Assembly: GCF_947623445.1 (NCBI RefSeq) | Contig: NC_135246.1 | Coordinates: 15,607,856-15,671,855 of the forward strand | DNA: 64,000 nucleotides | Direction of reading: 5' to 3' | Source of the DNA: Clavelina lepadiformis | Lineage: Eukaryota > Chordata > Ascidiacea > Aplousobranchia > Clavelinidae | In this document: positions 4,084-59,842 of the stretch, piece by piece | Layout: every line of letters begins with the position of its first letter | How positions within the stretch are numbered: position 1 is the stretch's first letter | Program-made: the position numbers and the translations under genes | Notes under the pieces: generated by a model | What the model was told of the DNA's origin: nothing | The model's input: the letters and a program-made list of their open reading frames with translations, nothing else | Database searches by the model: none

Positions 4084-5258
4084 TTAAGGTCCAATATTCG
4101 AGGATATTGTTCTGCACTTAAGGACGAATCGGCAGACCTGACAAAGCACTGAAAAATAAATGATTCCATAAAAGCAAAAGTTATTTATTTGTCAATGGCT
4201 CAAAGTTTGTGTTTTAGAAGCGCCGTGATTGCAATTTTCAAATACAACAATTTTTTAAGTAACTACTTAGTCAGGTAAGATGTTTGTATAAACAAAATTA
4301 ACTACAATAAATAAAAAAATTGTTAAAAGCCAAAACTGAACTTACATCGTCGTCTTTTGTTAGTAGGACAGCTACCTCTTGACCTGTAGAACGCGTTATA
4401 TCTGCAGTACGGTGTGCAGTCGAACTACAAACATTTTAGCATGGGTTCAGAATATTTCAGCAGAATGTTTTGCATTAGCAAAAATATCTCCAGTTTTCGA
4501 TGTATTATCACACTTTGCATTTTGATAAATTAATTATTCAACACACGTGTTATAAATATATGATCAAAGAACAACTGAAGTCTTGTTATAATAGTTTATA
4601 CATTATAACTAAAAATCTGTTTTTATATCCAGTAAAGCAACGGTATGGTATGACGTCATAATTTTCTCCTCGAACTGAGAAAAGTCACACGACTTAATCT
4701 CGACGCTGATTACCGGCGCTTGTTTTTGTGCAACGGTTGGAGCAAAACATTGTTCTTTTGGTTTTCTGGTGAGTTTATATTGTATTGCCCGAATTTAGAA
4801 CTGTTCCCAGGACCACTGAACAGGAGCAAACGTCATTAATTTCTTGCCATTACAGTAGAGCATTAAAAGGTCAGTGCCGCTGGTTGTCGAGTACGACCGC
4901 ATTATTGCAAGTCCAGCGCTCCAACCACACCGCTACCGAGTTGAGTCAATGGCAGCAGTTTTCGTATTTTGTCTTACTGTGATCTTTTTGCGCGATGTTG
5001 TAGGCCTAGTTGTAGGTTGTTCGGTGCTTGCTGCTGTCGTTGTGAGTTCATTTACAGAATATTTGCTTACTTGCTGTTGAGGATCTGCAAGAATTATACG
5101 TTGTGCTTTTACCGACGTCGATTAGTCTCATATAGTGAGATGTTTATACATGCAGGTGGTTAAGGATGAATCGCTTGCAACTGGCAGCCATCTCACTCAC
5201 CTGCGTTGACTGACAAGACGAAGCAGAGAAATGCGAACAACATAACGCAGGTCTTCAT
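4084..5258 (-). CDS. A1: secreted six-cysteine basic peptide precursor
   Basis: There are four exons, at 5201-5258, 4978-5084, 4346-4424 and 4084-4148, with introns of 116, 553 and 197 nt, all GT-AG, and phases 1-0-1. The product is 102 aa. Signal peptide: MKTCVMLFAFLCFVLSVNA. Exon 2 is a Thr/Ser-rich propeptide ending PTTSRKKIT, a basic processing site. Exons 3 and 4 give the cysteine domain FDCTPYCRYNAFYRSRGSC then CQVCRFVLKC, spacing C-x3-C-x11-C-x9-C-x2-C-x5-C, tail ISSNIGP. A run NKRRR in the C3-C4 loop sits at the exon 3/4 join and might be cut. Net charge of the mature part is about +9. Secretion follows from the signal peptide; a host-defence role is inference. Paralogues: A2, A3, A4. 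Exon limits are well supported because four copies agree. Confidence 0.9.
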
Positions 5259-5589
5259 TCTTTCGATCGTTCACAAAACTTTCAAATACAATATAAAAAA
5301 ACTAAAATATGCAAAGTATTTTTCACGCTTTTAGCGTTAATTACGTCTGCAGGGTAAAACAAATATAGTTTAAATTAAGTTTAAGTGATTACCCAATAAT
5401 ATGCAGATGCTATTTAAAACACATTTATGGCTTGCACAATGCGCACAATGGAATGCATGCATGTAAACCTGTATGCTCATTCTTTCAGACAATGCAAGCC
5501 ATTTTAACCCAAAGCTGAAATACCAGTATTAGATATATCTCTTTCCGCTTACGCTCGACACATACCGAAGCAAACTGATTGATCGAACG

Positions 5590-5630
5590 ACCGATATTTG
5601 ATACCACTTACGGAGTGACGTAATATATTT
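5590..5630 (-). promoter_or_regulatory. A1 upstream element (CRE-like)
   Basis: About 340 bp upstream of the A1 start codon, the minus strand reads ATTACGTCACTCCGTAAGTGG, followed by GTATCAAATATCGG where A2 has a good TATA box. The block is shared by A1 to A4, which argues that it is the promoter. The distance to the ATG implies a long 5' UTR or an untranslated first exon. Confidence 0.55.
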
Positions 5631-5639
5631 TTGCCGTTA

Positions 5640-6220
5640 GAAAATAACGTGCATATTTTTTTGGCTTTCTTGCGCAATATGAATGGAAGGAGCATATACC
5701 TGAGCATTTTTTCATGGAGATATTTTTCTGAGCTAAAACAATGAAAACAATCATTTTTTCGGGTCAGGTTTTATTGTTTTCAGACACTTTGTCTGGTATT
5801 TTTGTGCCGGTATAATTTAATAATGGTATTTGTTATGTTTGAATAATACACTACCTGATGCTTAAGATTTATTTTCATTTCTTTAACGTTTTAGTAACTT
5901 TTATTTTTACGCACTTTTTCCTTTACAATACTTTTCTTAGCACTTTTGTTACGCATTCTTTAATTTATCCACACATCTCGTTTATTGCCTCACATTGTTC
6001 AAAAATTCAGACCTTACATATATTTAGCCTTTTTTGTTAATATGCAAGGTGGTCGACACCGTTTTGGTTTCGCTTAGCTGCTGTAGTCGTCATTTCTGGA
6101 GATGCTGCATCATGGTTACCAACGTGTTCTATTCAACGAAGGCCATTCCTTAGTAGTTAGCATTGTGCATTATGGAAAGATTATCAATACTGTATATATA
6201 TAAGTATATATATAGCTTAA
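5640..6220. other. Intergenic, simple AT sequence
   Basis: No gene seen. T-rich sequence lies at 5860-6020, and a TATA dinucleotide run at 6184-6215 adjoins the retrotransposon scrap. Confidence 0.4.
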
Positions 6221-6224
6221 AAAA

Positions 6225-7420: not shown

Positions 7421-7424
7421 TTGT

Positions 7425-8165
7425 TTTGGAAAATGCAAATGTTTGAAAAATCCCTATCATATGTACAACGAACTATAGAAACGTACCAACATGCAGCTAT
7501 TGCATGAATTTTGCTTTGTTGTCAAAAAATGAAGGAGTACATGAAGTTTTGAGAAACTCTGATTTTCCGATGACGTCTGAAGATCTTATTGACGCTGCAA
7601 ATTCCAAACACGAGGTATTTTCAATTGCAGTAAAGTTTCTGAGTTGTAAAAGTAAACGGCTGTTTCACGTTTTTACTTCCTACTGTCACGCAACGTAACT
7701 TAATGCGACACTTTTTATTCATTCTTACTAAAGAGCATTAACACGACATAGACTAAAACGCTTCCACTTCGTGATCAAATTGGAGACATTGAAACAAAAC
7801 CGGTCGCCATAGCGTGAGGTGTAACAGGTGCCAGTTTGGCTAATTGCGGTTTAGGTCGTATAGTTGGAAAATGATGGCATTCACCAACGAGTTAAATTGC
7901 AAGTTAATTTCTACGTATAAGTAAAATTACAACTTATTTAAACTGCTTCATGCTTGTTGCCTTTCAAAGACAGACGTTCAACTAAATTTTTTCGTTCAAC
8001 TTTTGTGATTTGTGTTGAAATTAAGAATACAATGCAACCAGACTTCGTTGGGTCATGTAGGATGAGCTTAACGTAAATTTTTGGCCAAAACTGCAAAGTC
8101 ACTTCGTACTAAATCCTGATTTGCGTTTATTCGCAGATGACGTGAATCAGCGTCCCAGACCTTTT
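7425..8165. repeat. Inverted duplicate block K, left copy
   Basis: This block matches the reverse complement of 14268-14955 in several segments. These are a GATTTTCCGATGACGTC segment near 7558, CACGTTTTTACTTC with GCAACGT near 7670-7700, and CCTGATTTGCGTTTATTCGCAG at the right end near 8118. By eye the identity is roughly 70-80% in the best parts. No coding exon could be supported in either copy, although short ORFs run through it. Confidence 0.6.
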
Positions 8166-9830: not shown

Positions 9831-9834
9831 ATGG

Positions 9835-12051: not shown

Positions 12052-12857
12052 TTAAGGTCCGATCTTCGATGGTACTGTTCTACAGTTAAGGACGTATCGA
12101 CAGACTCGACAAAACACTGAAAAATAAATAAGCAGTCGATTAAAATATTGTTAATTTAGCTGTCAATAAATTGCAGTTTGTATTTAAATGCACTGTATAA
12201 ATCCTTGTAGTGTTTGTGACTATCAAACACAACGACATTTGCGTAGAATGTTTGCAGAAATAAAAGTATTTTTAAACATCAAAAAATCTTTACAAGTAAC
12301 AAAAACAGCTTACATTGTCGTCTTCTGTCAGTGGGGCAGCTACCTCTTGACCTGGTGAACACGTTGTATCTGCAATACGGTGTGCAGTCGAGCTACAAAG
12401 TATATGAGAATTTTTTGTTAAAATCAGAAAAAATGTCTAAAATATTTTTCCATCTCATCTATATTTCAAAAAATGCAGTACCAATGTTTATTATTAAAAG
12501 CGAAAAACAACTTAGTTTGTCGTATTTATATTATCTTACAGTAATTGATTCATCATTTTTTATTAATTCGAATTTGACTTACTATAAATTTCTTGGGCCG
12601 GGGTGTAGTCGTAGGTTTTTCAACACTTACTGCCGTTTTTGCGAGTTCTGTTTCAGAATCTTTGTTTACTTGTGGTGCGGGAACTGCAAAGTTATATATT
12701 GTAATTTTTACCGACGTCGATTAGTCTCATATAGTGAGATGTTTATACATGCAGGTGGTTAATGATGAATCGCTTGCAACTCGCAGCCATCTCACTCACC
12801 TGCGTTGACTGACAAGACAAAGCAGAGAAATGCGAACAAGATAACGCAGGTCTTCAT
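12052..12857 (-). CDS. A2: secreted six-cysteine basic peptide precursor
   Basis: Four exons: 12800-12857, 12583-12683, 12314-12392 and 12052-12116. Introns are 116, 190 and 197 nt, phases 1-0-1, product 100 aa. Signal peptide MKTCVILFAFLCFVLSVNA. Propeptide VPAPQVNKDSETELAKTAVS, ending in TTTPRPKKFI; unlike its sisters it has lost the SRKR/SRKK motif and keeps only PKK. Cysteine domain LDCTPYCRYNVFTRSRGSC then CRVCRYVLNC, with the same spacing as A1, tail VPSKIGP. The tribasic DRRRQ precedes cysteine 4. Exon 1, exon 3, exon 4 and the first and third introns match A1 closely in length. A secreted, probably defensive peptide; that role is inference. A 143-aa plus-strand ORF over this gene is an antisense shadow. 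Confidence 0.9.
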
Positions 12858-14265: not shown

Positions 14266-14267
14266 AT

Positions 14268-17025: not shown

Positions 17026-17824
17026 TTATTCTTCGAAGTCGATATCTGGAAAGTCGACTTGGGCGGTCCGAAAATAGGCAACAGGTGTGTTGAATTTGCA
17101 GAAGAAATAACGGCAGATCAAGCATCGTCCTGCATTGTCAATAAATAACTTACTATATTCTATATCCAAATGCAACGACCACTACTGCGTAGGTTTTACA
17201 GACTTCAGTCCAAGCCGAAAGCAGAGCACTTCTATCAATTTTAAGTGTTAGAGACCGTTATAAACGTGTTGGATATAGAGCATTGCTCGTCACTAAAACA
17301 TTACTAAAGTAATTTCAATACATCCTGCCTTACTTGAGATTTCTTCGGAAAACGAACCGCATTTTTTCGCGTATTCTCCTCCAAATTTTAGTCGACAATA
17401 ACCCGCCTCCTTGCATTTTTCAATCTTAAAATAACAAAATAGAGCAAGGGTTATTATGCACAACATGATGTAATGATAGAATGATGCTGTAGACCATGAT
17501 GTGACAAATAGGTGATTTTGTCGTTTACAAGTTTCAGTAGTTTACCTTTTTTAAAAATAGATTGCTACTGAAGCTTTGTGAATCTAAATTAAAATTTAAA
17601 GACCGTTAAAATTTAATAAATAGATATACTGTGTTTAAATACACTGATATAAACAAAGTAATGCCATAAAAAAGCATGTTGTATATAAATATACATATAT
17701 ATAGAAGTTTAAGTTGAGTGCTATTTTGTAGCCTATAAAATGTAATGCTATATGTTTTTGAAACATACGTACCAGCAAAGTAAACATATGTTGAAATTAC
17801 GAAGACAAAAATGACAAGTTTCAT
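17026..17824 (-). CDS. D1: secreted six-cysteine peptide precursor with acidic tail
   Basis: Four exons: 17773-17824, 17546-17583, 17334-17424 and 17026-17129, introns 189, 121 and 204 nt, phases 1-0-1. Product 94 aa. Signal peptide MKLVIFVFVISTYVYFA. Exon 2 is only DSQSFSSNLFLKK and has no furin motif. The cysteine domain is IEKCKEAGYCRLKFGGEYAKKC, followed by ISRRCLICRYFFCKF, spacing C-x5-C-x11-C-x10-C-x2-C-x4-C. A C-terminal tail ends in VDFPDIDFEE, so the basic core is balanced by acid and net charge is only about +2. The exon 2 acceptor was chosen because it gives the same DSQS start and correct phase in D2. The acidic tail could mask the basic core or be removed; that is speculation. 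Confidence 0.86.
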
Positions 17825-18119: not shown

Positions 18120-18640
18120 AATTTTTTCTCCTGTTGCTATACTGTTATACAATTCTTGTACTCGAGATAACTAGAACAGAACCCAAGATTTTAAACATAC
18201 TTGTGTACAATACAGTTCCTGCTGTTTTAAGTTACCTGGGGCATACGTTTTCATTGTTATTAAAGTATTTACAACTCTTCATACCTTTGCCTAATTAAGC
18301 CTACTGCACCCGTTTACTCTTAATAAAACAAAAATAATTTCTGGTTTCAAAACAACTTTATGGCCGTTACTACGCTCATTGCTTTAACTGGTTTTGGTCA
18401 TGGCATGAACTGCCCTCAACCATCAAATGACTTTATACTATAAAGTAATTTCGCTAAAATATGATACGGCAACTTTACAGCCTGTAAAGTGCGTAAACGT
18501 CTTGAACGTAATGATTTCAAAATGTTTTTTTATTTGGCGTTTCGCTACAGATCAAACCGTCTTGTTTACCTTCCGTTGGTGTTTTTACACGTCGTTAACA
18601 ATGCGGGAGAACTTTAACAACAATGTATTATAGAGACTTA
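18120..18640. repeat. Block Q, copy 1 (upstream of D1)
   Basis: Shared with 24445-24985 and 30470-30770. Landmarks in order are TAATTAAGC, GCATGAACTGCCCTCAACC, TACAGATCAAAC and GAACTTTAACAACAATG. It starts about 300 bp upstream of the D1 start codon and probably holds conserved regulatory sequence or simply marks the duplication unit of D genes. Confidence 0.6.
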
Positions 18641-20309: not shown

Positions 20310-20560
20310 GTGACTAACTATAGACTCGTGCGTCGGTATCTTGCATCGTGACGCTATAGTGGTCTATAAAACCGGCATTCGAGCGTAAAAACGTGCAAAG
20401 TAGTCGTTTCCGTAATGACGCAATTGGGGCCAATTGAAAACGATATGTAGACCGGACCCAGTTGACATTTACCAATTTAATTAACCGATTTTTGAGACAA
20501 ATCATCACGCCGTACAGAGTAGGGTTTACCAATCTACTTATATGCAAGAATTATCATATA
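20310..20560 (+). repeat. Block P, copy 3 (3' of gene A3)
   Basis: The best-preserved TATA-like motif of the four copies: GCATCGTGACGCTATAG then GGTCTATAAAACCGG, followed by GACCCAGTTGACATTTACC. It lies about 1.5 kb beyond the A3 stop codon, farther away than in the other copies. Confidence 0.6.
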
Positions 20561-22060: not shown

Positions 22061-23098
22061 TTATGGCCCCATCTTCGATGATATTGGTGTGCATTTAAGG
22101 ACGTACCGGCAGATCTTACAAAGCACTGCAAAATAAATGAGACCTCGATTAAAACCTGCCAGGCTATAACTAACTAAATGGTCAAGTGGTACGTGTTTGT
22201 ATGCATGGATGAATGTAATAAAGTATTAAAAAATAAAAAAAAGATCACAAAACACTGTGTAACTTACATTGTCGTCTTCTGTCAAAAGGACATCTATCTC
22301 TTGACCTGGTGAGTACGTTATATCTGCAGTATGGAGTGCAGTCGAACTACAAAGTACGGTAAACAATTATAACAAAAATTTTCGCGTTAGCAAAATTATC
22401 TCATGTTTTTAATCTTTTATGAAACTTTCTGTCCTTAGATTATAACCTGTTTTTCACAATTCATATCGCTTTGTCATGGATATTAACTGTGCGGAGCGAA
22501 AGGTTATACCAACCCTTATACATCGAATAACTACAAAACTAAGCATATGTGCTCACAATAATTAAATAAATTGGAAAAAGTAGAAAAATGCAAGAAATTA
22601 AAACGTGCAGAATGTTTAAAGTGTACAATTTTGTTATAGCCTACTGTATACGATGGTCAGTTAGTACGACCACCAAACCACAATTAACTTCTAATCAAAC
22701 AGTATTAGTTAATTAGTTAATTTAATCTACTACGTTATTATCACCATCTAGTATATTAATAATTATTATTGCAAACAGCCAGGTCACGTTCTCGAATCAT
22801 TATCTAAACTTACAATGATTCTCTTGCGCGGAGGTGTATTACTTGTAGATTTTTCAATGTTTGCTGCTGCCGTTGTTGCGAGTTCTTTTTCAAGATCTAT
22901 GTTCACTTGTTGGGGAACTGCAAAGTACAATGCATTGCACTTTTAAGGGTGTCGGTTTGTCTCATATAAAGAAATGTTTCACAAAATACAAGCAAGTGGT
23001 TAATGATGAATCTCTTGCAACTCGCAGCCATCTCACTCACCTGCGTTGACTGACAAGACAAAGCAGAGAAATGCGAACGAGACAACGCAGGTCTTCAT
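22061..23098 (-). CDS. A3: secreted six-cysteine basic peptide precursor
   Basis: Four exons: 23041-23098, 22814-22917, 22268-22346 and 22061-22125. Introns 123, 467 and 142 nt, phases 1-0-1, product 101 aa. Signal peptide MKTCVVSFAFLCFVLSVNA, with a serine in the hydrophobic core. Propeptide VPQQVNIDLEKELATTAAAN, ending NTPPRKRII with a clear RKR site. Cysteine domain FDCTPYCRYNVLTRSRDRC then CKICRYVLKC, same spacing as A1. The tribasic DRRRQ precedes the exon 3/4 join, tail ISSKMGP. The stop codon TAA follows CCA where the sisters have CCT. Its upstream element has decayed, so it may be expressed differently from A1, A2 and A4. Confidence 0.9.
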
Positions 23099-28192: not shown

Positions 28193-29525
28193 TTATGCTT
28201 CGTCACGTGAAGTTTGTATAAACGGATCGTCCGCAAATAGACCACTGCCGATGAAATTGCAGAGAAAATAACGACAAATCAAGCAATCTCCTGCGTATAA
28301 TAAAAATAAAACTAACAGTGTAATATGTTCTTTATTGGCATTGCCTTGCGGTTAACAGGATGCACAGTTTGAATCAAAATCGAAAGCAGAATACTTCAAC
28401 AGATATTTACAAAAAATAGCTTAACAGTTGTAATCGTGCTGAATACAATGCATTACTTTACTACAACATTGTTAAATTTATTTTTTAGTACTGTTTTACT
28501 TGATTTTGTTCCAGGAAATAAACTACAACCCTTCGTGAATTTTCCTCTGGATTTCTGATGACAGTAACCGGCGTCTTTACAGGTCTGAAAAATATGAGGT
28601 TATAAGATAAAGGACAGCACGAGGTATAGATATATTCTGCAGCAGACTATAGCGTGCGAACAATTTCGTATAAAAATTGTTATTTTACCATTTTTGAAAG
28701 TCGCATGCTGTTGCTCTGTGAATCTGAAGTAAATAATGAAAACGTTTAAATTTTGGTCATATTTCAACAAAGACTAACCCATATGCTTACTTTGCTCAGT
28801 CCGAGGATAAAGCTTCGAATATCATATATCATAAGTATATTGATATAAATAATAGTAATACCATCGTAAAAATTAGGAATTGTGTGAACGTCGCCGTTTT
28901 TAAGCGTTTTCACCAAACGGAACTTTTTTTTTGTTTTTTTCCCCGAAAGTTTCTTTTTTGACAAAAAATACAAAAAGGATATAAGTGATTATTCTAATAT
29001 TTGCTACCGAGAACACAGTTTCTAATCTTGTTGTGCCCATCGAAAGTTCAAATAATTAGTGCAGGGGCCCTTAATAATATGTCGCGCATATATAGGTGGT
29101 GTCACTGGAATGTTTCTGTTTTCTATTTGTTTCATTAAAATTGTAAACGCAAATAAGTTATACATACAAAATAGAAAACTTTCTTTGCTAAATAATTCCT
29201 GTTATTACATCAATTAAGAAACACGTATAAATATGTCTTGCTGGACATAGACTTCGAATATAGCCAACTGTACAACGATAAGGACCTTTCCGCCTTCACA
29301 AATTTGTTTCTTTGTTCGTTTTATTATGACGTCATATGTTTAGGCTCGGATCAGACTCGCAAGGGCCCCAAGTTTGCTTAAAAAAATACCCTGGTACAAA
29401 TGCGTTGCATAAATTTTCGTTCATCGCTGTGTTTATTATCTAACATGGAATATTCTTCTTTTTCAATACGTACCAACAAAGTAAAAACATATTGCTACTA
29501 CGAAGCAAACGATGACAAATTTCAT
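28193..29525 (-). CDS. D2: secreted six-cysteine peptide precursor
   Basis: Four exons: 29474-29525, 28689-28723, 28500-28584 and 28193-28290. Introns 750, 104 and 209 nt, phases 1-0-1. Product 89 aa. Signal peptide MKFVIVCFVVAICFYFV. Exon 2 is DSQSNSMRLSKM. Cysteine domain TCKDAGYCHQKSRGKFTKGC, then KSRDCLICRYFLCNF, spacing C-x5-C-x11-C-x10-C-x2-C-x4-C, identical to D1. The C-terminal tail FADDPFIQTSRDEA is acidic like that of D1 but differs in sequence; net charge about +4. The first intron is four times longer than in D1. A hAT element has inserted about 90 bp upstream of the start codon and separates the gene from its block Q. Confidence 0.86.
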
Positions 29526-32491: not shown

Positions 32492-34046
32492 ATGAAGACC
32501 TGCGTTATCTTGTTCGCATTTCTCTGCTTTGTCTTGTCAGTCAACGCAGGTGAGTGAGATGGCTGCGAGTTGCAAGCGATTCATCCTTAACCACCAGCTT
32601 GTATTTTGTAAAACGTCCGTTTTTAAGACATCGGTGTAAGTACAACATATACCTTTGCAGTTCCCGCATCCCAAGAAAACAAAGATTCTGTAAATGAACT
32701 TGTAACAGCGATTGCAAGCGTTCAACAGCCTGTCACCTCTCGCAAGAGAATCATAGTAAGTTAAAAACAGAATACGAAAACTTTTATGAATACATTGGAT
32801 GATGAAGATATGGTTTAAATTTAGTTGTTTTTCACTTATGATACGATAAAGGTTGGTTAAAAGCCAAGTTCATTATCACTTTATCGGCGAGTTGTGGCAA
32901 CACAAAGATTAAAAGGGATTTAATAAAAATAATAGGAACGGTTCAGTTAAAAAAACAGTTAAGGTATAAACGAGAAAATATCCACAAGGGCCGGAACCGC
33001 GGCTACTACAGCTACTAAAAAGATAGTCAACACGACAACACGAAAACTACCAGAGTACGGGCACTGAGACAATCAGAATCAAGCTCTAAGTCAGTACAGA
33101 ACTAAAAACACCCTCCATTTTCAGGACCAACGCTAGTAAACATCTAAAAGCCAATGCAGCAGTCTGGAATACTGGGCATGTAGCGATAAGAAAGACGGAG
33201 AATGTTCAAAGCGTGTGTGGTGCACAAACTGCATCTTAAATAGGTAAGGGTGACAAAGGCTAAAACAAAGGTGGGAACGGTAAACCTAAAAACGTAATAA
33301 AATTTTTTAAAAGGTACAAACAACCACAAACGATTACACAGAAGTATCAGAAACACATTAAACTACAAACAAACCATTCCCGTGGTAGTTTCCGTCACGT
33401 CGTCGCTCTAGATGTCCCAAAATGCTCGTTTCACTTATAGTAACATAAAGTGATTTTAATTGTTAATGTTTATTAGTTTTTAATCTTATAACTATGAATA
33501 GTTGAGTTTTTTGAAGCTGAAAATACAGAAATAAAAAGTGCGCTATAAATCGTTGAAACATTAAGCGTAGTAAAGTATAAAAGGTCGAAACTGGAGATAC
33601 TTTTGCTGATGGAAAAAATCTTGATAAAAAGTTCTGATATACTTTGCAGCTCGACTGCACTCCATATTGCAGATACAACGTGTTCACCAGGTCAAAGGTT
33701 AGCTGTCCAGCTTATAAAAGACGGCAATGTAAGGTTTTTGTGGCTTTTTGAAAGCTTTTATTACTTTTTAAAATACTTAGAAATTTATACGTATATACAT
33801 TTGATGATGCGGTAACTTCACTGTTGTGGTGTTTGATGGAAAATGTTTGACGGTTTGATGGATGTTTGTTGTTAATAGAAAATTCTGCAATTGCACATGC
33901 GGAGTGACCTAAGATGCAAAATGCAGTTTATTACTAATAAAACAATCCATGTTGTTCAGCTAATTCCAAATTAATTTTCAGTGGTTTGTCTGGTCTGTCG
34001 ATACGTCCTCAACTGCGGAACAGCATCATCAAAGATTGGACCTTAA
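32492..34046 (+). CDS. A4: secreted six-cysteine basic peptide precursor (inverted copy)
   Basis: Four exons: 32492-32549, 32661-32755, 33650-33728 and 33982-34046. Introns 111, 894 and 253 nt, phases 1-0-1, product 98 aa. Signal peptide MKTCVILFAFLCFVLSVNA, identical to A2. Propeptide VPASQENKDSVNELVTAIAS, ending TSRKRII with a clear RKR site. Cysteine domain LDCTPYCRYNVFTRSKVSC then CLVCRYVLNC, A-family spacing, tail ASSKIGP. The C3-C4 loop reads PAYKRRQLV. It is the only A gene on the plus strand, and its 3' block P is inverted with it, so gene and flank were inverted together. A 74-aa minus-strand ORF over exon 3 is an antisense shadow. Confidence 0.9.
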
Positions 34047-38398: not shown

Positions 38399-38399
38399 C

Positions 38400-39960: not shown

Positions 39961-40728
39961 TTATTTTCCATTCCAGTAACTCCCCCCACTAGGGCAATAT
40001 TTTCTACCCTTTGGTGATTGACAGAACATGCAGACTGAAACAAAAAGAACACTTGTAGATGACTTGGTAGAGAATTAAAAACAGTTCAATTAGCAAGCCT
40101 CCTAATAAAAAATGTTACAACTCACAATAGTAAATTTAGATAGGCTACGTACAGTCTTTCGTTGTCGCTGAAAGTTTATTACAGTTGTATAAGAACACAC
40201 CCGGGCTTTTCATGTAGCAGAATGACTGCGGACATCTCTATAAAATTTAAAATTGTTTGTGATAAGAATCACCATAAGCAGGCTCTAACGTTTGTAATGA
40301 TTTGACCCACGCTATACCACACTCTAATGTAAAAGCTTTAGGGTTCAGTTTATTGCTGATGGATCTAGCTAAATATAACAAATTTTCGAATTAATTTATA
40401 AATCCATATATGTACAGTATGTACAAAACGATAAGACTAGATAAGACTTACGAGTGTTCCGCCGCTCACGTTTGGCAAAGTACCTATAAAAAGAAACAGT
40501 AATTAATCGTTAACTATACCGTATGTAAATTTGGCAACAATGTTCCGACAAAGTGGCAGTAAGTGTTATTTCAAAAATACAGTGATTAACACAAGAAAAA
40601 TGAAGTGGTAAACAAACCTTTATTTTCGAGAAGAACCATTACAAGACTTGACGCATAGGCCTACACTACTTACCTATGTAAGACAGAAAAACAACCACAA
40701 ATAGCAGTGCCGGAACACACGATCTCAT
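39961..40728 (-). CDS. E1: secreted six-cysteine basic peptide precursor
   Basis: Four exons: 40674-40728, 40452-40483, 40153-40237 and 39961-40034. Introns 190, 214 and 118 nt, phases 1-0-1, product 81 aa. Signal peptide MRSCVPALLFVVVFLSYI. Exon 2 gives only GTLPNVSGGTL, with no furin motif. The cysteine domain reads RCPQSFCYMKSPGVFLYNC, then ATTKDFCMFCQSPKGRKYC and tail PSGGSYWNGK. Spacing is C-x4-C-x11-C-x10-C-x2-C-x8-C, the longest C5-C6 loop in the cluster. Charge is about +7. After CxxC it has Q, not the CR[YRF] seen in A, B, D and F; C1 shares this Q, so C1 and E1 may be the closer pair. A pseudo-exon at 44.4 kb resembles exon 3. Confidence 0.86.
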
Positions 40729-42040: not shown

Positions 42041-42044
42041 ATTA

Positions 42045-43358: not shown

Positions 43359-43679
43359 ACTTAGACCACAGACAAAACAAGTTCGTTCTCAATCAACAAA
43401 TCAGTAAACGCTTTATTTACAACAATTGCAGCTTGCAATAGCGCAGCAAACTGCGGTATAGCCATCCTTTCTCTCTTTAAACATCACAAAACAAACGTGT
43501 CGTGATTGTGTGCATAAAGCTAGATAAAAGTCTCATTACATCACTACGTAAACTTCACCGAAGAAAAACAGGAAGTAACCTGTGAAAAGAAGGAAATCAC
43601 GAAGCAAGTCGGATAGGGTTGAGAGGCTTTCTGAATCATAACATAATTAATGTTAAGACCTGTTTCATGCGATTCACGC

Positions 43680-46600
43680 GATGACGTTCATCAAAATTTG
43701 ACGTAATGAGAAACTCCAACTCGCTCAAAAGCAACTGTTTGTTTCCTCTCCTTATCAGTAGCCTGCCAACTTCACTGGTTTCGGGGAATTTTGATACAAG
43801 CCATTTTCAAAAGTTAATAAAGCGAATTGAAAACTGGGCCAGAAATGCAATGGTATGTGATACAAAGGTGGCGCAACTTGGTGCGATGGATATTTCCTGT
43901 CTTAATTATAGATTACCAAGAACTTAATCTTGATCTTGACGTGGCGACCAGAGTTGACACTATAGACCTGTAGTTTGACTGACATAACACATGAACAAAG
44001 CAAAAATAATTCATAGTGCTTTCTGAACGTCGTGAACAGATCAGAATTAAGAGAGCATAATTTGATCAAACTATATACAGGATACAAGGCTAAGTCATTC
44101 AAACGCGAAATAATCTTAATACTACCGCGTATAGTGGTGAATAAATGCCGCTAACCAAGCAAACGAACGCATTATAACGCAGCATACAGAAACTTCTTAA
44201 GATCTTCCACCAACATCAGTCCAGTAAGAGAAATGTAACAAATACATTGTGTTTTTATAATGTATTAACTTTTCTAGCATAAAAGTTAGAAGATCAAGCA
44301 TTTGACAATTTTTACCTCATCGTCTTTAAAATATTACACTTGGAAATTAACAAATTTCTCCAGCGGTTCTACCATTGCAGGCAAGAACACCCTGAAATGT
44401 TTTTCTCTAGAATGCTATGACAGCTCCCCGGGCGCTTTTCTCATAACGTCTTCTCATGACTGAAATCACTTCTATTTTAGCAAGGTTTGGAAAACATTTC
44501 AAAAAACACACAAGTCAGGCTGTATACAAGACGGGAGGTTAATGAGCCTGTTTAGGAACTTGGATCGCGTTGGCTGTGCAATACGAGTGAGCGCTTTGTT
44601 GTGATGAATTTGCCAATTCTTCGTCGGTGACAGGTCTGAATGCTTGCTAGCCACGCCCAAAGGTGACGTAATATCTCCGGGTAGTCTTTTTTATTGATTG
44701 TTCGAGCTAGTAGTGATTATTCATGATGCATTAAACAAAAATTTTTAAGGCAACAATTCATTACTACTTTTACTTTGTTGGGAAGTGTTTATGCTTTTTT
44801 CAACCTTGTTGGTGCCAAATGCTTCCAAGACTGGAAATTACTTCCTGGTTTGGGACCAAGTCTTAAAACCAGACATAATAGTCTTCATACTAAGGCTTGC
44901 TGAGTTTTCTTAATTATTGCGGCTTGACTACCGTCAGTCAAGCTTTAGGCAGAACGTAATATGACGTCTTTATCTACGCTACATGTCTCTGAATACACAA
45001 CATAGAAGGAAGAAAAAGATGCCGCCGATAAGCTCGAATGATGATGAACTGAAGACGAAATCACCACATGCTACAAACAACTCGCCCACGAGGCATTTAT
45101 TTTTTGGAAAAAATTTAAATTGAATACTTTCGATACATCTACGAGCACGTACGTTGCTCCAGTAATAAGCTACGATCTGGTGTAATACTTCCAAAAACCA
45201 CCACGCAGAATGTGTTTGTATCGGCACTGACTTTATGCACAAACATGTTCACCGTAACAAATAATATGTCAAGCTTGGTAAGAAGAGTTACCTCTCAATG
45301 CGCTTTTCTGACGCGCAAACCATAAAATGTGAATGAGTGAAATAAATGACATTGCCGTAGGTATTAAACCGGAATGGGGTACTTCACGGTCTATTACCAC
45401 TATCGCCCCATACAAATGTGCAGTTGCAGTGGATCATTTCCCATGTTTTTTTTATCATATATGATATTGTTTTGATAATACTGTGTGTAGTGTTATAACA
45501 ATATAAACCACTGTGTTGTCATAAAAAATCATAAAATGGCGAAATATAAATGTGATGGTTGATTACCAGTTTTCACAGTACTAGTGACAACGCTATCGTT
45601 ATGATAACACAAATAGCAGCAATATAACCGGAAATTATTTATCATTAATATACAAAATCAACAACTATGCTTTGAAAAAGTTTCCCAAGTAAGTGAATAT
45701 ATCACTTGGTTTAACTTGCACTTGGAACTGCTATGACTTGGTCTGTGTGTATCTTGCACAGTTTTCCGCACAACCAAAACACTATAAACGGATAAAGTGA
45801 ACGAGTCACTCATTGATCCTTGCTCTGCATGGTGAAATTTCAGTGTTGCATTTTGACCACAAGCCGAAACCGAATGTAAGTTTTACAAGTCCTGGAGACT
45901 AGAGCGCCGCCAGTGACATGATATCAAATTAGCATTTCTCCGCATGCTGTCGCCACCGAAGCAAGTGTTTTTTGGCTGGCTGCTGACAATCTGTCAGCTG
46001 TGCTAGTAAACATTCATATGGGTGTTGAACTGAAAATGAATACAAATTAAAGTGTTAAGTTTAAAAACGTCAAAGGTTTGTTTTTGTCTCATTGGTTTGT
46101 AATTAGGTTTAACAAAAAGTGGTAGATCAGAAATCTGCACACCCACAACCACGTGATTACTTTGCATGCTTGTAGGCACAGTAGTTAAATATAAGCTATT
46201 GTTTCGTTTTTTAAGTTTATGTCGTAATTCGTTGCGCCAGACATTTTTATGCCAACTGTCGGTCCTCACTCGACGATCATTGCCTTTTTCGTAAAACCAT
46301 GACATAATACTGAATATACCAAAAAGTTGTAACACGAAAAACATCGCAAAAGATCGAGTAGAGAAAATATTCCCATATAAGTATAGCACTGCATTACCGT
46401 TTAAATGCGAATGTTTTTAAAAAGGAAACTGTAGCTGTTGTTCTTTAGTTATCTTTAGAAATGATGAATCAAATATTTTTAGCTGTCAAGTGGAAATCGA
46501 GAATAGAAAATGAAAAATTTTTATAACAATTGCCGAAAAATACATGCCGTAAATGCAGTATATTACATCATGTGCAATCCATATTTGTATCTTATTTGTT

Positions 46601-48920: not shown

Positions 48921-48929
48921 ACGTTTACA

Positions 48930-49315
48930 TATATCTTTGCAACATTTAGATAAATTGAAAGTGCTGCTGGTAATACAGCGAAAATCTGAAGCACTAAAGG
49001 CCGCCTTTGAACCGGTTTGCAAACATTGTCATCAGTTTTAGCGCCAAATATATCAAAAATAGGAACATTACATAAAATGACAAACCATCTGCTTCACACG
49101 AACAGTCGTCATGGGACTACGAAGATTTTGCAACCGAAAGTATGACGTCATTTCCCTAGCTTGCGTGAGAAGCATAACACGCTTGAACAGAAGTCACGAA
49201 AAATAAAAAATCATAGGAAGCGGAATAAATTGCGTTTATTTATATCACTGCATTATCCTTGCGCCCTTCGCTTTATTTTTAGAAGACCTATATAATATAT
49301 TCTCAATTTTAGGCA
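48930..49315. repeat. Block X, copy 1
   Basis: Matches 60430-60905: CACATTTAGATAAAT-like start, AACATTGTCATCAGTTTTAGC, TTGCAACCGAAAGTATGACG, GGAAGCGGAATAA and a right end GCTTTATTTTTAGAA. It lies directly left of segmental duplicate G copy 2. Confidence 0.6.
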
Positions 49316-49379
49316 TTATCCAATCAACTTTTATTGAAATCCAAATTTTGCGAATTTTCACGCGCCTTACACGATGAAG

Positions 49380-51220
49380 ATAACCCAAGTTTGACGTAAT
49401 TAGAAACCCTACTAGCATATAAGCAAGTGTTTGTGTCCACTCCTTGCCCCAAAGCTTGCCAACCTCACCGGTTTCGGAGATTTTTCATCAAAGCCGTTTT
49501 CAAGAATTATTACAGCGAATTGAAAACTTTGCCAGGAATACAGTACAATGGTATATGTGGTGTCAACTATATCAATGTGACACAATAGGGTTCCATTAGA
49601 ATAGTGGCTGTATAAAGTTACAGCTATTGAGTTCTTACGTGGCAGTAGCTGGAAAATAATCATTTCACAGTCATACTTTAACAATATTTCCCAAATGAAT
49701 TTATTAGTAGGCCAATATTTGTCATTACGATTGTCATTTGTCATTATTATATTTCACAGTCGTTACACAAATAAAATACGTACCACAGACAAACCAGTCA
49801 CGTGTACTTCATAACAGATAACAGTTTTGCAAGGCATGGTATCATTTGACTGTTGTATTCTAATCACAAGCCGGAGTCTGATGGATATTTTTCACGTCGC
49901 GGAGGAGCGTCAGCAATAAGATAATAATAGATCAATATTTTCCGCATGCTGTCGCTAAAGAAACAAATACGGTTAGCTGACTGCCAACGTACTGTCAACC
50001 GTGCGTGTTGAATAAAAATTTCAAGGCCTTTAACTGACAAATAATATAGTTAAATTGTCTTGAAACTAATGGTAACAAAAGCCTAAAAAAACTTTTTTTA
50101 ACCATCTGTTATCAACATCATAGTCATAAGATAACCGAAAGAGTATCAATTTTGTGTATTTGCTCGAGAACGTAATTATTTTTGCATCCCTTTGGGCACA
50201 ATTGTAAAACGTATCTGATTTGACTTAGTTTCAAATTTTATCATGTTTATTTGCGTCAGACAATTCTTGATGCGAACTGTCGGCCATGACTCAGCACAAT
50301 CATTCCTTTTTTGGTGAAGTTAGATGAAACGCTTTAGACAAATGCTGAAACATGAAGAAAGATTGCTGGGTCGTCCAGGTTCAAAGTGTCTACAAACAGC
50401 CGTGCATCATAATTTTAGAATGCGAAAGTTTAAAAAGAACAACTTGGTATAAAATAGTTTTTAATTTTTTTTTAAAAACCTGAGTCAAAGCTTTTTTGGT
50501 TGTCAAGTAGCATGTATAGAAATCGTAAATATAAACAAGAACGTTTTCGTGAACATGATATAGACCGTGATGCAGAAAAGACTTAAACATTATATTTTTG
50601 TAAGTTCATTAAATCTGGAATTTATTTCATGTTTTGGACCAAAGTTTTTGTAGCCGAATTTTTTACAATTTTTACAAAGTCATCCTTACATGCAGACACG
50701 ATTTTTTAAACAGTTTACAAATATAAGAGAGTATTTCTATCCCGTTTGGGTATAAAATTGAGTTATATACTAAGGTTTTGTCGGTTGGGAGAAAACATTT
50801 TATTTTTGTAGCAAAATCTTGAAAACCGAAGTACTTAGCTTACGATGTGATACTTGCTTACAAACATTGTTTATGACATGGGAGTATTATTTTTTATCCA
50901 TTTTTATACTAAAAATATTTTATTAAATTTTAAAAAGTTACCGCACCTGACACACCTACAAACTATTTGATCAACAACGGATAAATTAAATCAGTTACTT
51001 TTATAAGGATAACGCGTGCCCTGCGGCTTTGCGGTACAATAAAACTTAACTGGAGTGGGCGACCGCCTATACGATTGGTGACCAGACGATATGACGAAAC
51101 TGTCGTATTTAGCACAAACTCTTGTTTGAATATATGACTATACTGAGGTTTGGTCATACATCGTTGTGCCCAACTTCTCCTAACAAACATTAGTTTCGAT
51201 GTGAGAGAAATAACCTGCCA
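49380..51220. repeat. Segmental duplicate G, copy 2
   Basis: Partner of 43680-46960, shorter because it lacks the 44.0-45.8 kb insert. Its left end has TTTGACGTAATTAG and then CATATAAGCAAG, a CRE plus TATA arrangement pointing right, also seen near the F1 promoter. No exon of a peptide gene was recognised inside it. Confidence 0.55.
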
Positions 51221-51263
51221 GTGTTACTCATGGTTCGAACTTCACCTCATTTCGCCTAGTACT

Positions 51264-51335: not shown

Positions 51336-51405
51336 AGTTTACTGACCCAACGGCTACTGTGTCTACAACTGCGTGTGGGAGCAGATTATTTGTCAAGATT
51401 TTAAA

Positions 51406-52354
51406 ATGAAGAACGTGGTTTTTGTGCTTACGCTGATTTTCTTTGTCGCCGCCATTTGCGCAGGTTTGTCCATACTTAGTTATTACAATAGGGTTGATGG
51501 TAAACAAAGCCCACTTACTGTGATAAAATTATCATATTTCCTTGCGTTCAAGTGCTGCATGACAGCAGTGTAGATCGCAAGTTAAACTTCTTTGGAACAG
51601 ACGTATAATTGTACCTTTCATTGCTAGTACCTCTCGGCTAAAGCTTGCCTACGTAGTATAATCAGAAGTAGGCTGTAGCTATAGTATCCACTAAAAGCGT
51701 GGCTTAAGTGAAACTGAATTTTAATTAACCTAAATTTTAGTTGGATTTAGCATAAAACGCGTAGGTGACTTTACAATGTTATTCACTTTCATGGTAGTTC
51801 CACTTGACAAGAGAAACTCTTACAACGGATTAGTCGAAAAGTCGTCACGTGATTCCTTGATTCGTAGCAAGCGATCCTACCATATCATGAGAGTTACGGT
51901 GAGTTATGGGGGCAAGATAAAATATTTTGTTTTGTAAGTAATTATATAAATTTTTGAAGATAATAGCGTAATGTGCTGCTAAAGAATAAAATAGTGCTTT
52001 GGGCACTTTTTTTCATTCAGATAATGTGTGACAACCCTTGCAGACGGCATCCACAGACGAAAAAATATATGGGATCATGCATTAATAAACCATATCCACG
52101 TAGGTTACTCGTTTCGCTTTGTTTTTTCTGCTTATTTTTCTAAAATATTATTGATCAGCACCGTTTTTTAGCGTGAATAAATTTGTCTGTTAGTTTATAT
52201 TCTTCATTTTAAACTTACTATTCTTGTAACTCTGTTTAAGTAGGTTAGCTTATTATCCATGTAAATCTACATACATATATTTGTAATTGCAGATCTTTGC
52301 AACTTTTGCCGATACAGTTTTCACTGCGGACAATTTAGTTCTTACGTGGCGTAG
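51406..52354 (+). CDS. F1: secreted six-cysteine peptide precursor with RSKR site
   Basis: Four exons: 51406-51463, 51798-51898, 52021-52099 and 52293-52354. Introns 334, 122 and 193 nt, phases 1-0-1, product 99 aa. Signal peptide MKNVVFVLTLIFFVAAICA. Propeptide VPLDKRNSYNGLVEKSSRDS, then LIRSKR, a textbook furin site, and SYHIMRVT. Cysteine domain IMCDNPCRRHPQTKKYMGSC, then HLCNFCRYSFHCGQFSSYVA. Spacing is C-x3-C-x12-C-x8-C-x2-C-x5-C; net charge about +6. It is closest in spacing and in CxxCRY to the A and B families. An in-frame ATG 33 nt upstream would add 11 residues in front; the MKN start gives the normal signal peptide. The first donor is GTTTGT, the weakest in the gene. Confidence 0.9.
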
Positions 52355-54480: not shown

Positions 54481-55504
54481 CGCACACCTACTGCAAAAAA
54501 CGGACTTAGTTGAATGGTGTAATAATTGCCGTGCACGACAATAGAATGTGAGGTATTCTAACAATAGAACCATTTTTACAAATAGGTTTCAAGCTCAATA
54601 ACTTTCGTCAACCCAAATAATAATTGGCTGAAAATAAGTCATTGTAAAAAAGTTATGGCATTGTTGAAAGTCAACAAGACAATACAAAAGCGTGGGATTG
54701 TATATATCGTGATGAAATTATAAAGAAATGACGAAGATATGCAGATCAAAACCACTTTTTTCACAATAGTGGTAGCCAAAGAGAAATCCTAAACAGAGAA
54801 GATTAATATTATTAATTCTTTCCATGAAATATCGTAAAACTTCATACAATATTTACTGAAATTAATTCACAAATTTAATTTATTTAAATTATTCACATAA
54901 CTATAGCGGCTACTTGTGCGGTTCAATAGGCTACATCACTGGATTTACACTACGCCAAAGCTATAAACGCCAATTTGTACAATCCATGACTCGTCGGTTT
55001 ATAGTTATACTTATTCTTTATACTTTATATATACTTTATACAAAACCACTTCACCAAAATCTGTTTTTAAACAGGCGTTAGAAAACTGAAATTATTTTTG
55101 GCAACTTTACGATAAACAAATGACATAACAACGAAATCCCTGACGACGTTCATCCCCACTGATTGATGACGTGGTAAGCTTTGAAGTCACCGGATTCAGT
55201 TAGACCCGTTTTTTTTTTTTGAATGGTAAATTTTTAGCAAGCCTTGCTCAGAAAGTAAGTTTAGAAGTCAACAGAAGGACAAATATCACAGAATCAGACA
55301 AAGTGGAGCATGTCGTGCTGTGACAGTCGACGTTTCTGACGGTCAACAAGAAAAGTTGCCTTTAAAGTTGTCTTATCCGTGCTTGGTATAATCGAGAAAA
55401 GATAATGAAAAGAACAGATAAAGTTTGCGTTTTACGTTTTTAAATATAGGCTAACCCCGTTTACCCCGAGCTGAAGTAAAAAACAACATTTTGTTTTTCA
55501 TTCC

Positions 55505-55940
55505 AGGTGACGTCAGGTTTAATTAGTTCTTACTAACAAACAAAATTTGGCTAGCAATGTTTCATGCTTCCCTAAACTATGCTTTTTTTTAAAAAAAGTT
55601 TACGTAATTGCAACGTCATAAAAACAATGATACGTATTGTGACCTGTATTCGACATGTCCCATGTAAACGCAATTTTACGAAATAAATCATCAATTTAAC
55701 AGCGGTTATATGGTCACGAAGCCAAAAACGTAAGATCTAGACTTCGAAGGTTGCATGCGGCCATATGTGAAACAGCATACACGAGACGTTCCCATATCTC
55801 TAAGGACGTCACACTTCACTTTTTCCTAAAACGTGAACAAGTCTTACATGATTGCATGCGAGTGCAGCACACAGTGAGCGTTTAGTCATGAAATCGCTGT
55901 AGCTATTTCCGTTCATGTGTTTCTGTTCTATAAAGGCTGG
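55505..55940 (+). promoter_or_regulatory. B1 promoter: CRE sites and TATA box
   Basis: A perfect GTGACGTCA lies near 55507, GGACGTCAC at about 55804, and CTATAAAGGCTGG at 55928. The start codon is 148 bp past the TATA box, implying a leader of about 115 nt. Confidence 0.65.
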
Positions 55941-56075
55941 CGGGCGCGTGCTACCATTCACATGAAAACTTCCTTGAAGCAGACAAGACTTAGAATTCTG
56001 CAACTGCGTTTACAGACCAGAACTTCGTTGCGTTTTCGGTAAAACTTTAAAACGGGGCTAATATTGCAGAAAATA

Positions 56076-56912
56076 ATGAAGTCTGTTGTTGTCATGCTCG
56101 CTTTGGTTTGTGTATTTGCTGTCATCCACACAGGTGAGCTGAAGCATTGCTGTTTGAGTAGAACAATTTTTAAAGAATCTTGGAATTAGACAGTAAAATC
56201 TATCATCAAATTTTACAGGACAATTTCGCTCTTCGTTTTATAAAGAAATGCTTTTACTACATCTTTGTAACGTTACGTTGTTCACGTTGTTCTTAATGAT
56301 GTTTTATGTTTTTACTTATAGTGTCGATTATGTTGTGCAGTTTCCAGCGAGGAATCGGAAGCAACAAATCTTGCTCGAGCCAGAGTAAGAAGGGCGGCGC
56401 AGACAATTGCAGTTACCGACAAGCAAAATCAAGTATGTTGCATATGGATCTTCTCGTAACTTGCTGCTTACAATTATGCAACAGTACTTTATTTTACCTG
56501 TAATCTTATTTGTTTAAAACTACCCGAAAAAATGAATGTTTTTGAATTTATTTTTTTATCGGATGAAAGCAAAGTTTAGTAACATAGTAAATGCAAGGTG
56601 TCTTTGTTGTAAACTCTGACAGATATCCAATCACTGTGACAATTGCTTTGCTTTTTGCAGTTTAATTGTCGTCATTACTGCCTGAGAAGCAGTTTAACCA
56701 AAAAATACATCGCAATTTGCGACAAAGGTAAGTTTAGTTTGTTGTAATACATGAATAACACTTCAGTTTACTTTAGCAATGAATAATATTTAAGACGAAT
56801 TAATAAAGTCATTGTTGATGTACATCACCAACTATATGTTTATTTGCTTTTAGTGAAATGCTATATTTGTCGGCGACACTTGAAGTGCAAAACGGTCTCA
56901 AAGATGTTTTAA
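56076..56912 (+). CDS. B1: secreted six-cysteine strongly basic peptide precursor
   Basis: Four exons: 56076-56133, 56341-56432, 56661-56727 and 56854-56912. Introns 207, 228 and 126 nt, phases 1-0-1, product 91 aa. Signal peptide MKSVVVMLALVCVFAVIHT. Propeptide VSSEESEATNLARARVRR is acidic at its start and ends in a furin-type RVRR. The mature part begins AAQTIAVTDKQNQ, then FNCRHYCLRSSLTKKYIAIC and DKVKCYICRRHLKCKTVSKM, ending F. Spacing is C-x3-C-x12-C-x4-C-x2-C-x5-C; charge about +10 over 54 residues with no Glu. The acidic propeptide plus basic mature peptide is the layout of many antimicrobial peptide precursors, so a membrane-active defence role is a fair inference. B2 is its tandem twin. 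Confidence 0.93.
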
Positions 56913-58499
56913 GAGCCGTCATGGTGACACCAAAAGCATTCTAGCATTCATTTCAAACGTCACTCTATAGTCTATGCCACTGGAAAAATTACTGTTGGAT
57001 TTCATTCATTTGTCTAATACAGCACAGACATCTTACTAGGCCGTATTTATTTGCTTACTGCTGCTGGATTGGTTCTTGCGACTAATTGCATCAACGATAT
57101 AATTCATCTGTAACCGATAATAACAATTAAAGCAAATAGCAATCAATTGAAAGTGACAATTCAAGCCTATATGTAAAAATATTGTAATTTTCTGTTTGAT
57201 TGTAACTCAACTTGCAGCAAATCTTATTTTGTTCTTTTTTTTATTACGAACAAATTGTTTTTTGAAACAACGATACCAAGTGACTAACATTTACTGATCA
57301 TAACATCTTTAAATCATGTTTCATTATTTGTCCTAAGACCTATAGTGCCTTTAACTTTTAGTTTTGACTACGGTGCTTTTTGCATAAATATATTCCACGA
57401 TTGTCAAAATAGGTGTTGTTTGTACTATTTCTATGTGTTTGGAAATACAATTAACTTATAATTTTAAAAATATTCATTGATTTTTGCATGGATCGAGTCC
57501 TTTGGACCAAACCTTGGCCACATTTAGATAAATCGAAAGCAGTACTAGCACGACAATACTGCAAAAACGGACTTAGTGTGTGCGGCATTCTAACAATAGC
57601 ACCGTTTTACAGATAGGTTTCAACTTTCAAGCTCAATAACTATCGTCAACCCAAATAATAATTGGCTGAAAATAAGTCATTGCAAAAAAGTTATGGCATT
57701 GTGGAAATTCAGCAAGACAATACAAAAGCGTGAGAATGTATATCGTGATGAAATTATTATGAAATGACGAAGATATGCAGATCAAAACCAATTTTTTCAC
57801 AATAGTGGTAGCCAAAGCGAAATCCCAAACAGAGAAGATTAATATTATTAATTCTTTCCTTGAAATATTCTAAAACTTCATAGAATATTTACTGAAATTA
57901 ATTCACAAATTTAATTTATTTAAATTATTCACATAACTATAGCGGCTACTTGTGCGGTTCAATAGGCTACATCGCTGGATTTACACTACGCCAAAGCTAT
58001 AAACGCCAATTTGTACAATCCATGACTCGTCGGTTTATACAAAACCACTTCACCAAAATCTGGTTTTAAACAGGCGTTAGAAAACTGAGATTATTTTTGG
58101 CAACTTTACGGTAAACAAATGACATAACAACGAAATCCCTGACGACGTTCATCCCCACTGATTGATGACGTGGTAAGCTTTGAAGTCACCGGATTCAGTT
58201 CGACCCGTTTTTTTGAATGGTAAATTTTTAGCAAGCCTTGCTCAGAAAGTAAGTTTAGAAGTCAACAGAAGGACAAATATCACAGAATCAGACAAAGTGG
58301 AGCATGTCGTGCTGTGACAGTCAACGTTTCTGACGGTCAACAAGAAAAGTTGCTTTTAAAGTTGTCTTATCCGTGCTTGGTATAATCGAGAAGAGATAAT
58401 GAAAAGAACCGGTAAAGTTTGCGTTTTACGCTTTTAAATACAGGCTAACCCCGTTTACCCCGAGCCGAAGTAAAAAACAACATTTTGTTTTTCATTCCA

Positions 58500-58890
58500 G
58501 GTGACGTCAGGTTTAACAAGTTTTTACTTACAAATAAAATTTGGCTACCAATGTTTCGTGCTTCCCTAAACTATGTTTTTTTTTTTTAATTTACGTAATT
58601 GCAACGTCATAAAAACAATGATACGTATTGTGACCTGTATTCGACATGTCCAATGTAAACGCAATTTTACGAAACAAATCATCAATCTAGACTTCAAAGG
58701 TTGCATGCGGCCATATGTGAAACAGCATACACGAAACGTTTGCAAACCTTTAAGGACGTCACACTTCACTTACTCCAAAAAACGTGAACAAGTATTACAT
58801 GATTGCACGCGAGTGCAGCACACAGTGAGCGTTTAGCCATGAAATCGCTGTAGCTATTTCCGTTCATGTGTTACTGTTATATAAAGACTG
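58500..58890 (+). promoter_or_regulatory. B2 promoter: CRE sites and TATA box
   Basis: Same layout as B1: GTGACGTCA near 58500, GGACGTCAC at about 58754 and TATATAAAGACTGG at 58878. It is nearly identical to the B1 promoter, so the two genes are probably co-regulated. Confidence 0.65.
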
Positions 58891-59026
58891 GCGGGCGCGT
58901 GCTACCATTTACATGGAAACTTTCTCAAAGCAGACAAGACTTAGAATTCTGCAACTGCGTTTACAGACCAGAACTTTGTTGCGTTTTCGGTTAAAGTTTA
59001 AAACGGGACTAACATTGCAGAAAATA

Positions 59027-59842
59027 ATGAAATCTGTTGTTGTCATGCTCGCTTTGGTTTGCGTGTTTGCTGTCATCCACACAGGTGAGCTGAAACATTG
59101 CTGTTTGAGTAGAACAATTTTCAAAGAATCTTGGAATTTATCATCAAATTTTATAGGACAATTTCGCTCTTCGTTTTATAAAAAAAGATGCTTTTACTAC
59201 ATCTTTGTAACGTTACGTTTGTTCTTAATGATGTTTTATGTTTTTGCTTATAGTGTCGATTATGTTGTGCAGTTTCCAGCGAGGAATCGGAAGCAACAAA
59301 TCTTGCTCGAGCCAGAGTAAGAAGGACGGCGCAGAAAATTGCAATTACCGGCAAGCAAAACAAAGTATGTTGCATATGGATCTTCTTCTCGTAACGAGCT
59401 TCATACAATTATACAACAGTACTTTATTTTTACCTGTATTTGTTTAAAACTACCTGAAGAAATGAATGTTTTTGAATTTATTTTTTTATCGGATGAAAGC
59501 AAAATTTAGTAACATAGTAAATGCAAGGTGTTTTAGTTGTAAACTCTGACAGATATCCGATCACTGTAACAATTGCTTTGCTTTTTGCAGTTTAATTGTC
59601 GTTATTACTGCCTGCGAAGCACTTTAACCAGAAAATACATCGCAAATTGCGACAAATGTAAGTTTAGTTTGTCGTAATACATGAATAACACTTCAGTTTA
59701 CTTTAGCAATGAATAATATTTAAGACGAATTAATAAAGTCATTGTTGATGTACATCACCAACTATATGTTTATTTGCTTTTAGGGAAATGCTGTATTTGT
59801 CGGCGATTCTTGAAGTGCAAAACGATCTCAAAGATGTTTTAA
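59027..59842 (+). CDS. B2: secreted seven-cysteine basic peptide precursor
   Basis: Four exons: 59027-59084, 59273-59364, 59591-59657 and 59784-59842. Introns 188, 226 and 126 nt, phases 1-0-1, product 91 aa. Signal peptide and propeptide up to RVRR are identical in protein to B1. The mature part differs at many positions: TAQKIAITGKQNK, then FNCRYYCLRSTLTRKYIANC and DKWKCCICRRFLKCKTISKM, ending F. A Tyr-to-Cys change next to cysteine 4 gives seven cysteines and a CCxC motif. An odd cysteine could pair between chains and make a dimer, or alter the fold. Three changes in exon 1 are all silent. It is strongly basic like B1. A 150-aa plus frame running through exon 1 and intron 1 is not the real product. 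Confidence 0.93.

Follow-up and report, generated by a model that had tools for sequence, protein, structure and literature searches.

The alpha-, beta- and big defensins are encoded by clustered genes, whose products combine a signal, a propeptide and a six-cysteine cationic core with adjacent cysteines at its end, and gene clusters of the cone snail type, which encode fast-evolving cysteine-rich peptides, join a conserved signal exon to a variable core. In ascidians, a group that counts among the vertebrates' closest relatives, comparable molecules come from Synoicum turgens. The turgencin report (PMC7024374) describes turgencin A and B as cationic, amidated peptides of 35-36 residues, with six non-adjacent cysteines in the spacing C-x3-C-x4-C-x7,8-C-x2-C-x3-C and disulfides C1-C6, C2-C5 and C3-C4, and states that attempts to obtain their cDNA failed and that gene and precursor are not known. 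St-CRP-1 and St-CRP-2, from the same species, appear in a second report as neutral six-cysteine peptides of 18-19 residues with the pattern CC-C-C-CC (PMC13208793). Here, a family of six-cysteine peptide genes is described from Clavelina lepadiformis (order Aplousobranchia), in a stretch of 64,000 bases (hereafter, the window) that occupies positions 15,607,856-15,671,855 on contig 7, the genome measuring 209 Mb and the published assembly being given as 210.1 Mb (PMC10884593). No published account of this family was found in the literature searched, as far as the texts were accessible.

The first-pass annotation of the window, made from its letters alone, had proposed at least eleven genes, each of four exons joined at GT-AG sites in phases 1-0-1, with no exon above 110 nucleotides. 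All eleven could be rebuilt, every locus giving four coding exons in these phases, a length divisible by three and a stop, and the longest coding exon within the window measuring 107 nucleotides (A1 exon 2). Exons 1 and 2 were picked by start codon, hydrophobicity, splice sites and phase, after exons 3 and 4, and the boundary of C1 exon 2 was corrected to 26549-26518. The cysteine signature proposed for these loci, C-x(3,5)-C-x(11,12)-C-x(4,10)-C-x2-C-x(4,8)-C, is exact over all of them, with six cysteines invariant in the aligned window cores (n=11), and the core is divided by an intron between C3 and C4, one half lying in exon 3 and the other in exon 4. The residue after the CxxC, described as R in most, is R in nine of the eleven loci and Q in C1 and E1. 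The description as six-cysteine cores needs amending for D2 only, which carries a seventh cysteine in exon 4 (59784-59842), adjacent to C4 and absent from D1; this extra cysteine could lead to dimers. The cluster is in fact larger than the window, with 17 complete models and three broken copies within ~101 kb of one chromosome. As had been proposed, a single family with a common exon plan and secreted-looking cationic cysteine cores, expanded by duplication on one chromosome, is supported.

The exon 3 plus exon 4 pattern used for the chance control was derived from the claimed signature, and the scan is a test of chance and clustering rather than of discovery; it covers exons 3 and 4, exons 1 and 2 standing outside it. 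Within these bounds, 11 loci were matched in the window, against a mean of 0.02 and a maximum of 1 in 100 first-order Markov sequences, and the same scan gave seven loci in the adjoining 41.5 kb to the left and none in real flanks of 75,356 and 72,745 bases (148,101 in total).

Agreement with public records was assessed on 12 proteins, and a protein search with eight of the models gave nine Clavelina lepadiformis records. Nine of the eleven window models have counterparts (A1, A2, A3, E1, F1, D2, B1, B2 and C1), identity being letter-for-letter for A1, A2, A3, E1 and F1 in the window and for A6, G1 and G2 to the left of it; such agreement means that other pipelines drew the same exons, their underlying reads not having been seen. 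The matching records are all annotated as uncharacterized or unnamed. The genes had been called hidden and probably missed, which does not hold: since nine of eleven stand in public protein sets, they are unnamed rather than missed.

On the minus strand, the records identical to type A models are P0002 (LOC143465489) for A1 (4084..5258; exons 5258-5201, 5084-4978, 4424-4346 and 4148-4084; core C-x3-C-x11-C-x9-C-x2-C-x5-C), P0001 (LOC143465490) for A2 (12052..12857; exons 12857-12800, 12683-12583, 12392-12314 and 12116-12052) and P0003 (LOC143465382) for A3 (22061..23098; exons 23098-23041, 22917-22814, 22346-22268 and 22125-22061). B1 (17026..17824; exons 17824-17773, 17583-17546, 17424-17334 and 17129-17026), which has an acidic tail past C6, agrees at 96.8% over 94 residues with P0008, and B2 (28193..29525; exons 29525-29474, 28723-28689, 28584-28500 and 28290-28193) at 97.0% over 66 of 89 residues with P0009, these two 97% matches being presumed alleles. 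C1 (25549..26697; exons 26697-26646, 26549-26518, 26273-26183 and 25604-25549) was compared by eye with P0015, which exons 1-3 match bar a few residues, the end of the record differing from that of the model (YWSG). E1 (39961..40728; exons 40728-40674, 40483-40452, 40237-40153 and 40034-39961), identical to P0012, ends in YWNGK. On the plus strand, F1 (51406..52354; exons 51406-51463, 51798-51898, 52021-52099 and 52293-52354) is identical to P0005, and D2 (59027..59842; exons 59027-59084, 59273-59364, 59591-59657 and 59784-59842) lies wholly inside P0007 (LOC143465795), which begins further upstream. The other two plus-strand loci have no record of their own among the 12 compared proteins: A4 (32492..34046; exons 32492-32549, 32661-32755, 33650-33728 and 33982-34046) reaches at best 72% to P0001, and D1 (56076..56912; exons 56076-56133, 56341-56432, 56661-56727 and 56854-56912) 85.7% to P0007. 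Two record isoforms of A6 (-22076 to -22893), P0004 and P0006, are distinguished by 12 residues where exon 2 begins, which suggests alternative splicing of the propeptide.

To the left of the window the cluster continues for ~41 kb, to about -40.8 kb from the window start, with six complete models (F2, A5, G1, A6, G2 and G3) and the three broken copies. Two of these, A7 and A8, are type A remnants that lie ~8 kb apart, are 94-95% alike to A1 over its 3' half, and have kept just exons 3 and 4, in which tyrosine replaces the fifth cysteine; the 5' half of A1, used as query, was unmatched beside them. The third, G4, straddles the left window edge on the minus strand (first two exons at 1231-1171 and 329-186, spanning 186..1231; exons 3-4 left of the window), and its frame is broken by an exon 2 five bases shorter than that of G3. 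No further members were accepted between -117 kb and +134 kb, a candidate at -108 kb, the single extra match of a looser scan, being discarded by eye. In genome searches, all 26 matches listed for an A precursor and all 14 for a G precursor fell inside the cluster. These searches were incomplete, the query P0008 matching only B1 and not B2, and because they overlooked known members the absence of a second cluster elsewhere in the genome is a weak conclusion. A separate tblastn search gave weak scattered matches outside the named members. The only family trace seen off contig 7 came from a DNA search and is an A-like exon 4 piece of 61 bases on contig 9 (L028:5290-5364), which has a stop in its translation and is read as a relic.

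The cores are cationic throughout, with a net charge (K+R-D-E) from C1 to C6 of +3 to +9 in all 17 complete models, F2 and B1 standing lowest. All models but B2, E1 and F2 (14 of 17) have at least two adjacent basic residues in the stretch from residue 18 to C1. A run of basic residues also stands between C3 and C4, at the border of exons 3 and 4, in every complete A core except A6 (five of six), and B1, C1 and G1-G3 have shorter dibasic pairs in that loop; if cut at this run, these five A peptides would consist of two chains held by disulfides. A possible amidation signal is present only in C1 (terminal G) and E1 (terminal GK). All 17 models have a hydrophobic exon 1, in part because hydrophobicity guided its selection. 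In the predicted structure of A2, mean confidence per ten residues is 81-89 over residues 51-90, a stretch in which the CxxC sits on a helix; it drops to 63 over the final ten residues, C6 included, and averages 66.9 for the whole precursor. The predicted model of the B1 type consists of two long helices, the first of which passes through the signal.

The 17 cores were tested against known spacing patterns (defensin, Kazal, ShKT, EGF-like and CS-alpha-beta). The mismatch with classical defensins noticed in the first-pass annotation was borne out, the alpha-, beta- and big defensin spacings fitting none of them: the family resembles these defensins in its clustered genes and its succession of signal, propeptide and cationic six-cysteine core, but its cores lack the terminal adjacent-cysteine pattern and have an intron between C3 and C4. 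The Kazal-type and ShKT-type spacings likewise fit no core, and 16 of the 17 fit none of the CS-alpha-beta, Kazal, ShKT and EGF-like patterns; D2, owing to its additional cysteine, fits the loose versions of the CS-alpha-beta and C-x-C patterns. An insulin-like spacing, raised by the x11 between two cysteines, was dropped by eye. Among eight record proteins run against Pfam, no model of a mature defensin was matched; Defensin_propep appeared on P0002 (residues 1-25) at a sub-threshold 12.9 bits (cut-off 23.6, E-value 0.14), and the names EBA-175, Anophelin, Protamine_like, zinc-finger and others were rejected as below cut-off. Also rejected were the best PDB match (E-value 0.055) and four matches in a structure search of a viral library (all with E-values >5), and with A2, the single model searched by Foldseek, no PDB chain was retrieved at E-values up to 10. 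Protein searches, which reach only sequences with shared five-residue words, gave no relative outside Clavelina lepadiformis except the turgencins, returned by one search because they formed part of its query. A match to an unrelated known family had been named beforehand as refuting the proposal, and none that is credible came from the protein, Pfam or PDB searches. With St-CRP-1 and St-CRP-2 the family shares the ascidian origin and the six cysteines, while size, charge and cysteine pattern differ; St-CRP-1 scored -0.4 bits on the family profile.

Over the core, replacement divergence in type A pairs (n=8; dN, 0.10-0.21) is lower than silent divergence (dS, 0.28-0.65), as expected of working proteins. 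In type G, the core of G1/G2 has a dN of 0.19 and a dS of 0.68, and that of G2/G3 two replacement and no silent changes. D1 and D2 are contained in a tandem duplication of ~3 kb (54547-57555 and 57579-60477, together 54547..60477; 90.5% identical), and their cores differ by ten replacement changes and one silent change, a count too small to claim positive selection.

The A genes are conserved unevenly along their length. In seven A pairs, exon 1 is 97-100% identical, and the 60 bases before the start codon together with intron 1 stand at 73-97%, against 74-86% for exons 3 and 4, 51-67% for introns 2 and 3 (first 100 bases of each), and 56-83% for the first 100 bases past the stop. Between A2 and both A5 and A6, identity is 95-98% across exon 1, the non-coding intron 1 and exon 2, and falls at intron 2 (58 and 67%), with a silent divergence in the core of 0.65 and 0.36. 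The simplest reading of a near-identical 5' module over diverged A cores suggests gene conversion or exchange of 5' modules, the alternative being constraint on a regulatory stretch. A conserved signal exon and a variable core are also features of cone-snail-type clusters, to which no sequence relation is claimed, but the stretch conserved in Clavelina includes a non-coding intron.

Gene structure, clustering, record matches, cationic cores and the type A selection pattern are observed, and it is on these, with the chance control, the dibasic sites, the exon-intron contrast in A pairs and the moderately confident A2 region with its CxxC helix, that the reading we favour is based: the family probably, though by no means surely, comprises secreted precursors of cationic host-defence peptides acting by membrane damage. 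Each precursor would consist of a signal peptide (exon 1), a propeptide that may be short or long (exon 2) and a six-cysteine core (exons 3 and 4), from which signal peptidase, together with a proprotein convertase that cleaves at basic residues, would release a cationic core of ~39 to 51 residues, or of 59-61 in type B with the acidic tail kept. The mature core, with its cysteines presumably disulfide-bonded, would then bind and damage microbial membranes, the site of action probably being blood cells or epithelia.

Several points weigh against this proposal. With the acidic tail retained, the charge falls to +1 in B1 and +3 in B2; the signal peptides were called from hydrophobicity, without a dedicated predictor; sites of kappaB type are not in excess upstream of the genes (one found against 1.8 expected in 17 x 500 bases); and no relative with a known function was found by protein, Pfam, PDB or fold (A2) searches. 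Moreover, secreted peptides that are small, cationic and rich in cysteine are also known as signals, inhibitors and channel ligands. A broader proposal can be advanced only tentatively, namely that this is an undescribed chordate antimicrobial-peptide family found only in some ascidians, that it has a fold of its own and a two-exon core, and that it diversified as one shared 5' module (the end of the promoter, signal and propeptide) was swapped onto diverged cores, two-chain A peptides being conceivable.

Other roles for such precursors have to be weighed on the same evidence. The peptides could be secreted signals for the animal's own receptors, as cytokine- or chemoattractant-like ligands or as gamete or self-recognition factors, since the signal-like exon, the basic sites and the possible amidation of C1 and E1 suit processed ligands equally, and constraint on the type A cores agrees with this; however, ~20 divergent copies whose loops and C-termini vary are seen more often in defence families than among ligands of a few receptors, and the eight record proteins gave no Pfam match above cut-off, which leaves this role unlikely in our estimation. 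Somewhat less probable again is that they are deposited in the tunic or blood as inhibitors or deterrents, such as ligands of ion channels or inhibitors of proteases, directed at predators, parasites or settlers. Molecules of this kind often have six-cysteine scaffolds in which no two cysteines are adjacent, and the D pair is changing fast, but the failure of Kazal-type and ShKT-type spacing in all 17 cores and the lack of a credible PDB or Pfam match argue against it. Chance exon-like stretches or dead copies, which the three broken neighbours outside or at the window edge (A7, A8 and G4) might recall, are extremely improbable, given the Markov control, the exon-intron contrast and the public records, which contradict such an origin for nine loci (all but A4 and D1).

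A question of descent, compatible with defence, signal or inhibitor roles, is whether these genes are Clavelina relatives of the turgencins, which we regard as rather improbable. Synoicum belongs to the same ascidian order; both groups are cationic and share C4-x2-C5, and C1-x3-C2 is found in types A, D, F and G. Adjacent cysteines are absent, D2 excepted, and C1 and E1 might be amidated, as turgencins are. Against the family profile turgencin A obtains 6.2 bits, a value reached by 9 of 500 cysteine-held and 3 of 500 free shuffles, which leaves kinship unproven. By contrast, turgencin B scores 0.6 bits, equalled by 93 and 80 of 500 such shuffles, the C2-C3 loop is x4 in turgencins and x11-12 here, that between C5 and C6 x3 there and x4-8 here, and none of the 17 cores fits the turgencin spacing. 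Turgencin A, the one of the two used as a genome query, was unmatched in Clavelina, in a search without positive control.

Other features in and near the window include a two-copy repeat (18141-18555 and 24462-24883; 69% identical), whose first copy lies just upstream of B1 and which gave no further match in a genome search; it is possibly the remnant of a further gene. Repeated pairs were also seen at 43663-43849 / 49356-49542, 48935-49228 / 60435-60764, 7509-7776 / 14878-14603 and 3345-3697 / 20170-20520. Among the A and G copies to the left, two near-identical minus-strand frames ~8 kb apart (-10054 to -10689 and -1632 to -2267) appear by eye to resemble a small GTPase, and a long frame to the right (window coordinates 116638-121782) has, by eye, the look of a Ty3/gypsy-type retroelement. 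No Rfam family was matched at its gathering score, and ARAGORN predicted no tRNA.

The cysteine-rich defence peptides that we found reported from ascidians are a few purified molecules without genes. The genes, cluster and exon plan described here belong to hitherto uncharacterized or unnamed records, for which no relatives were recognised. The clustered split-exon family offers ready candidates for synthesis and testing, and its four-exon plan a template for comparison with turgencin genes.

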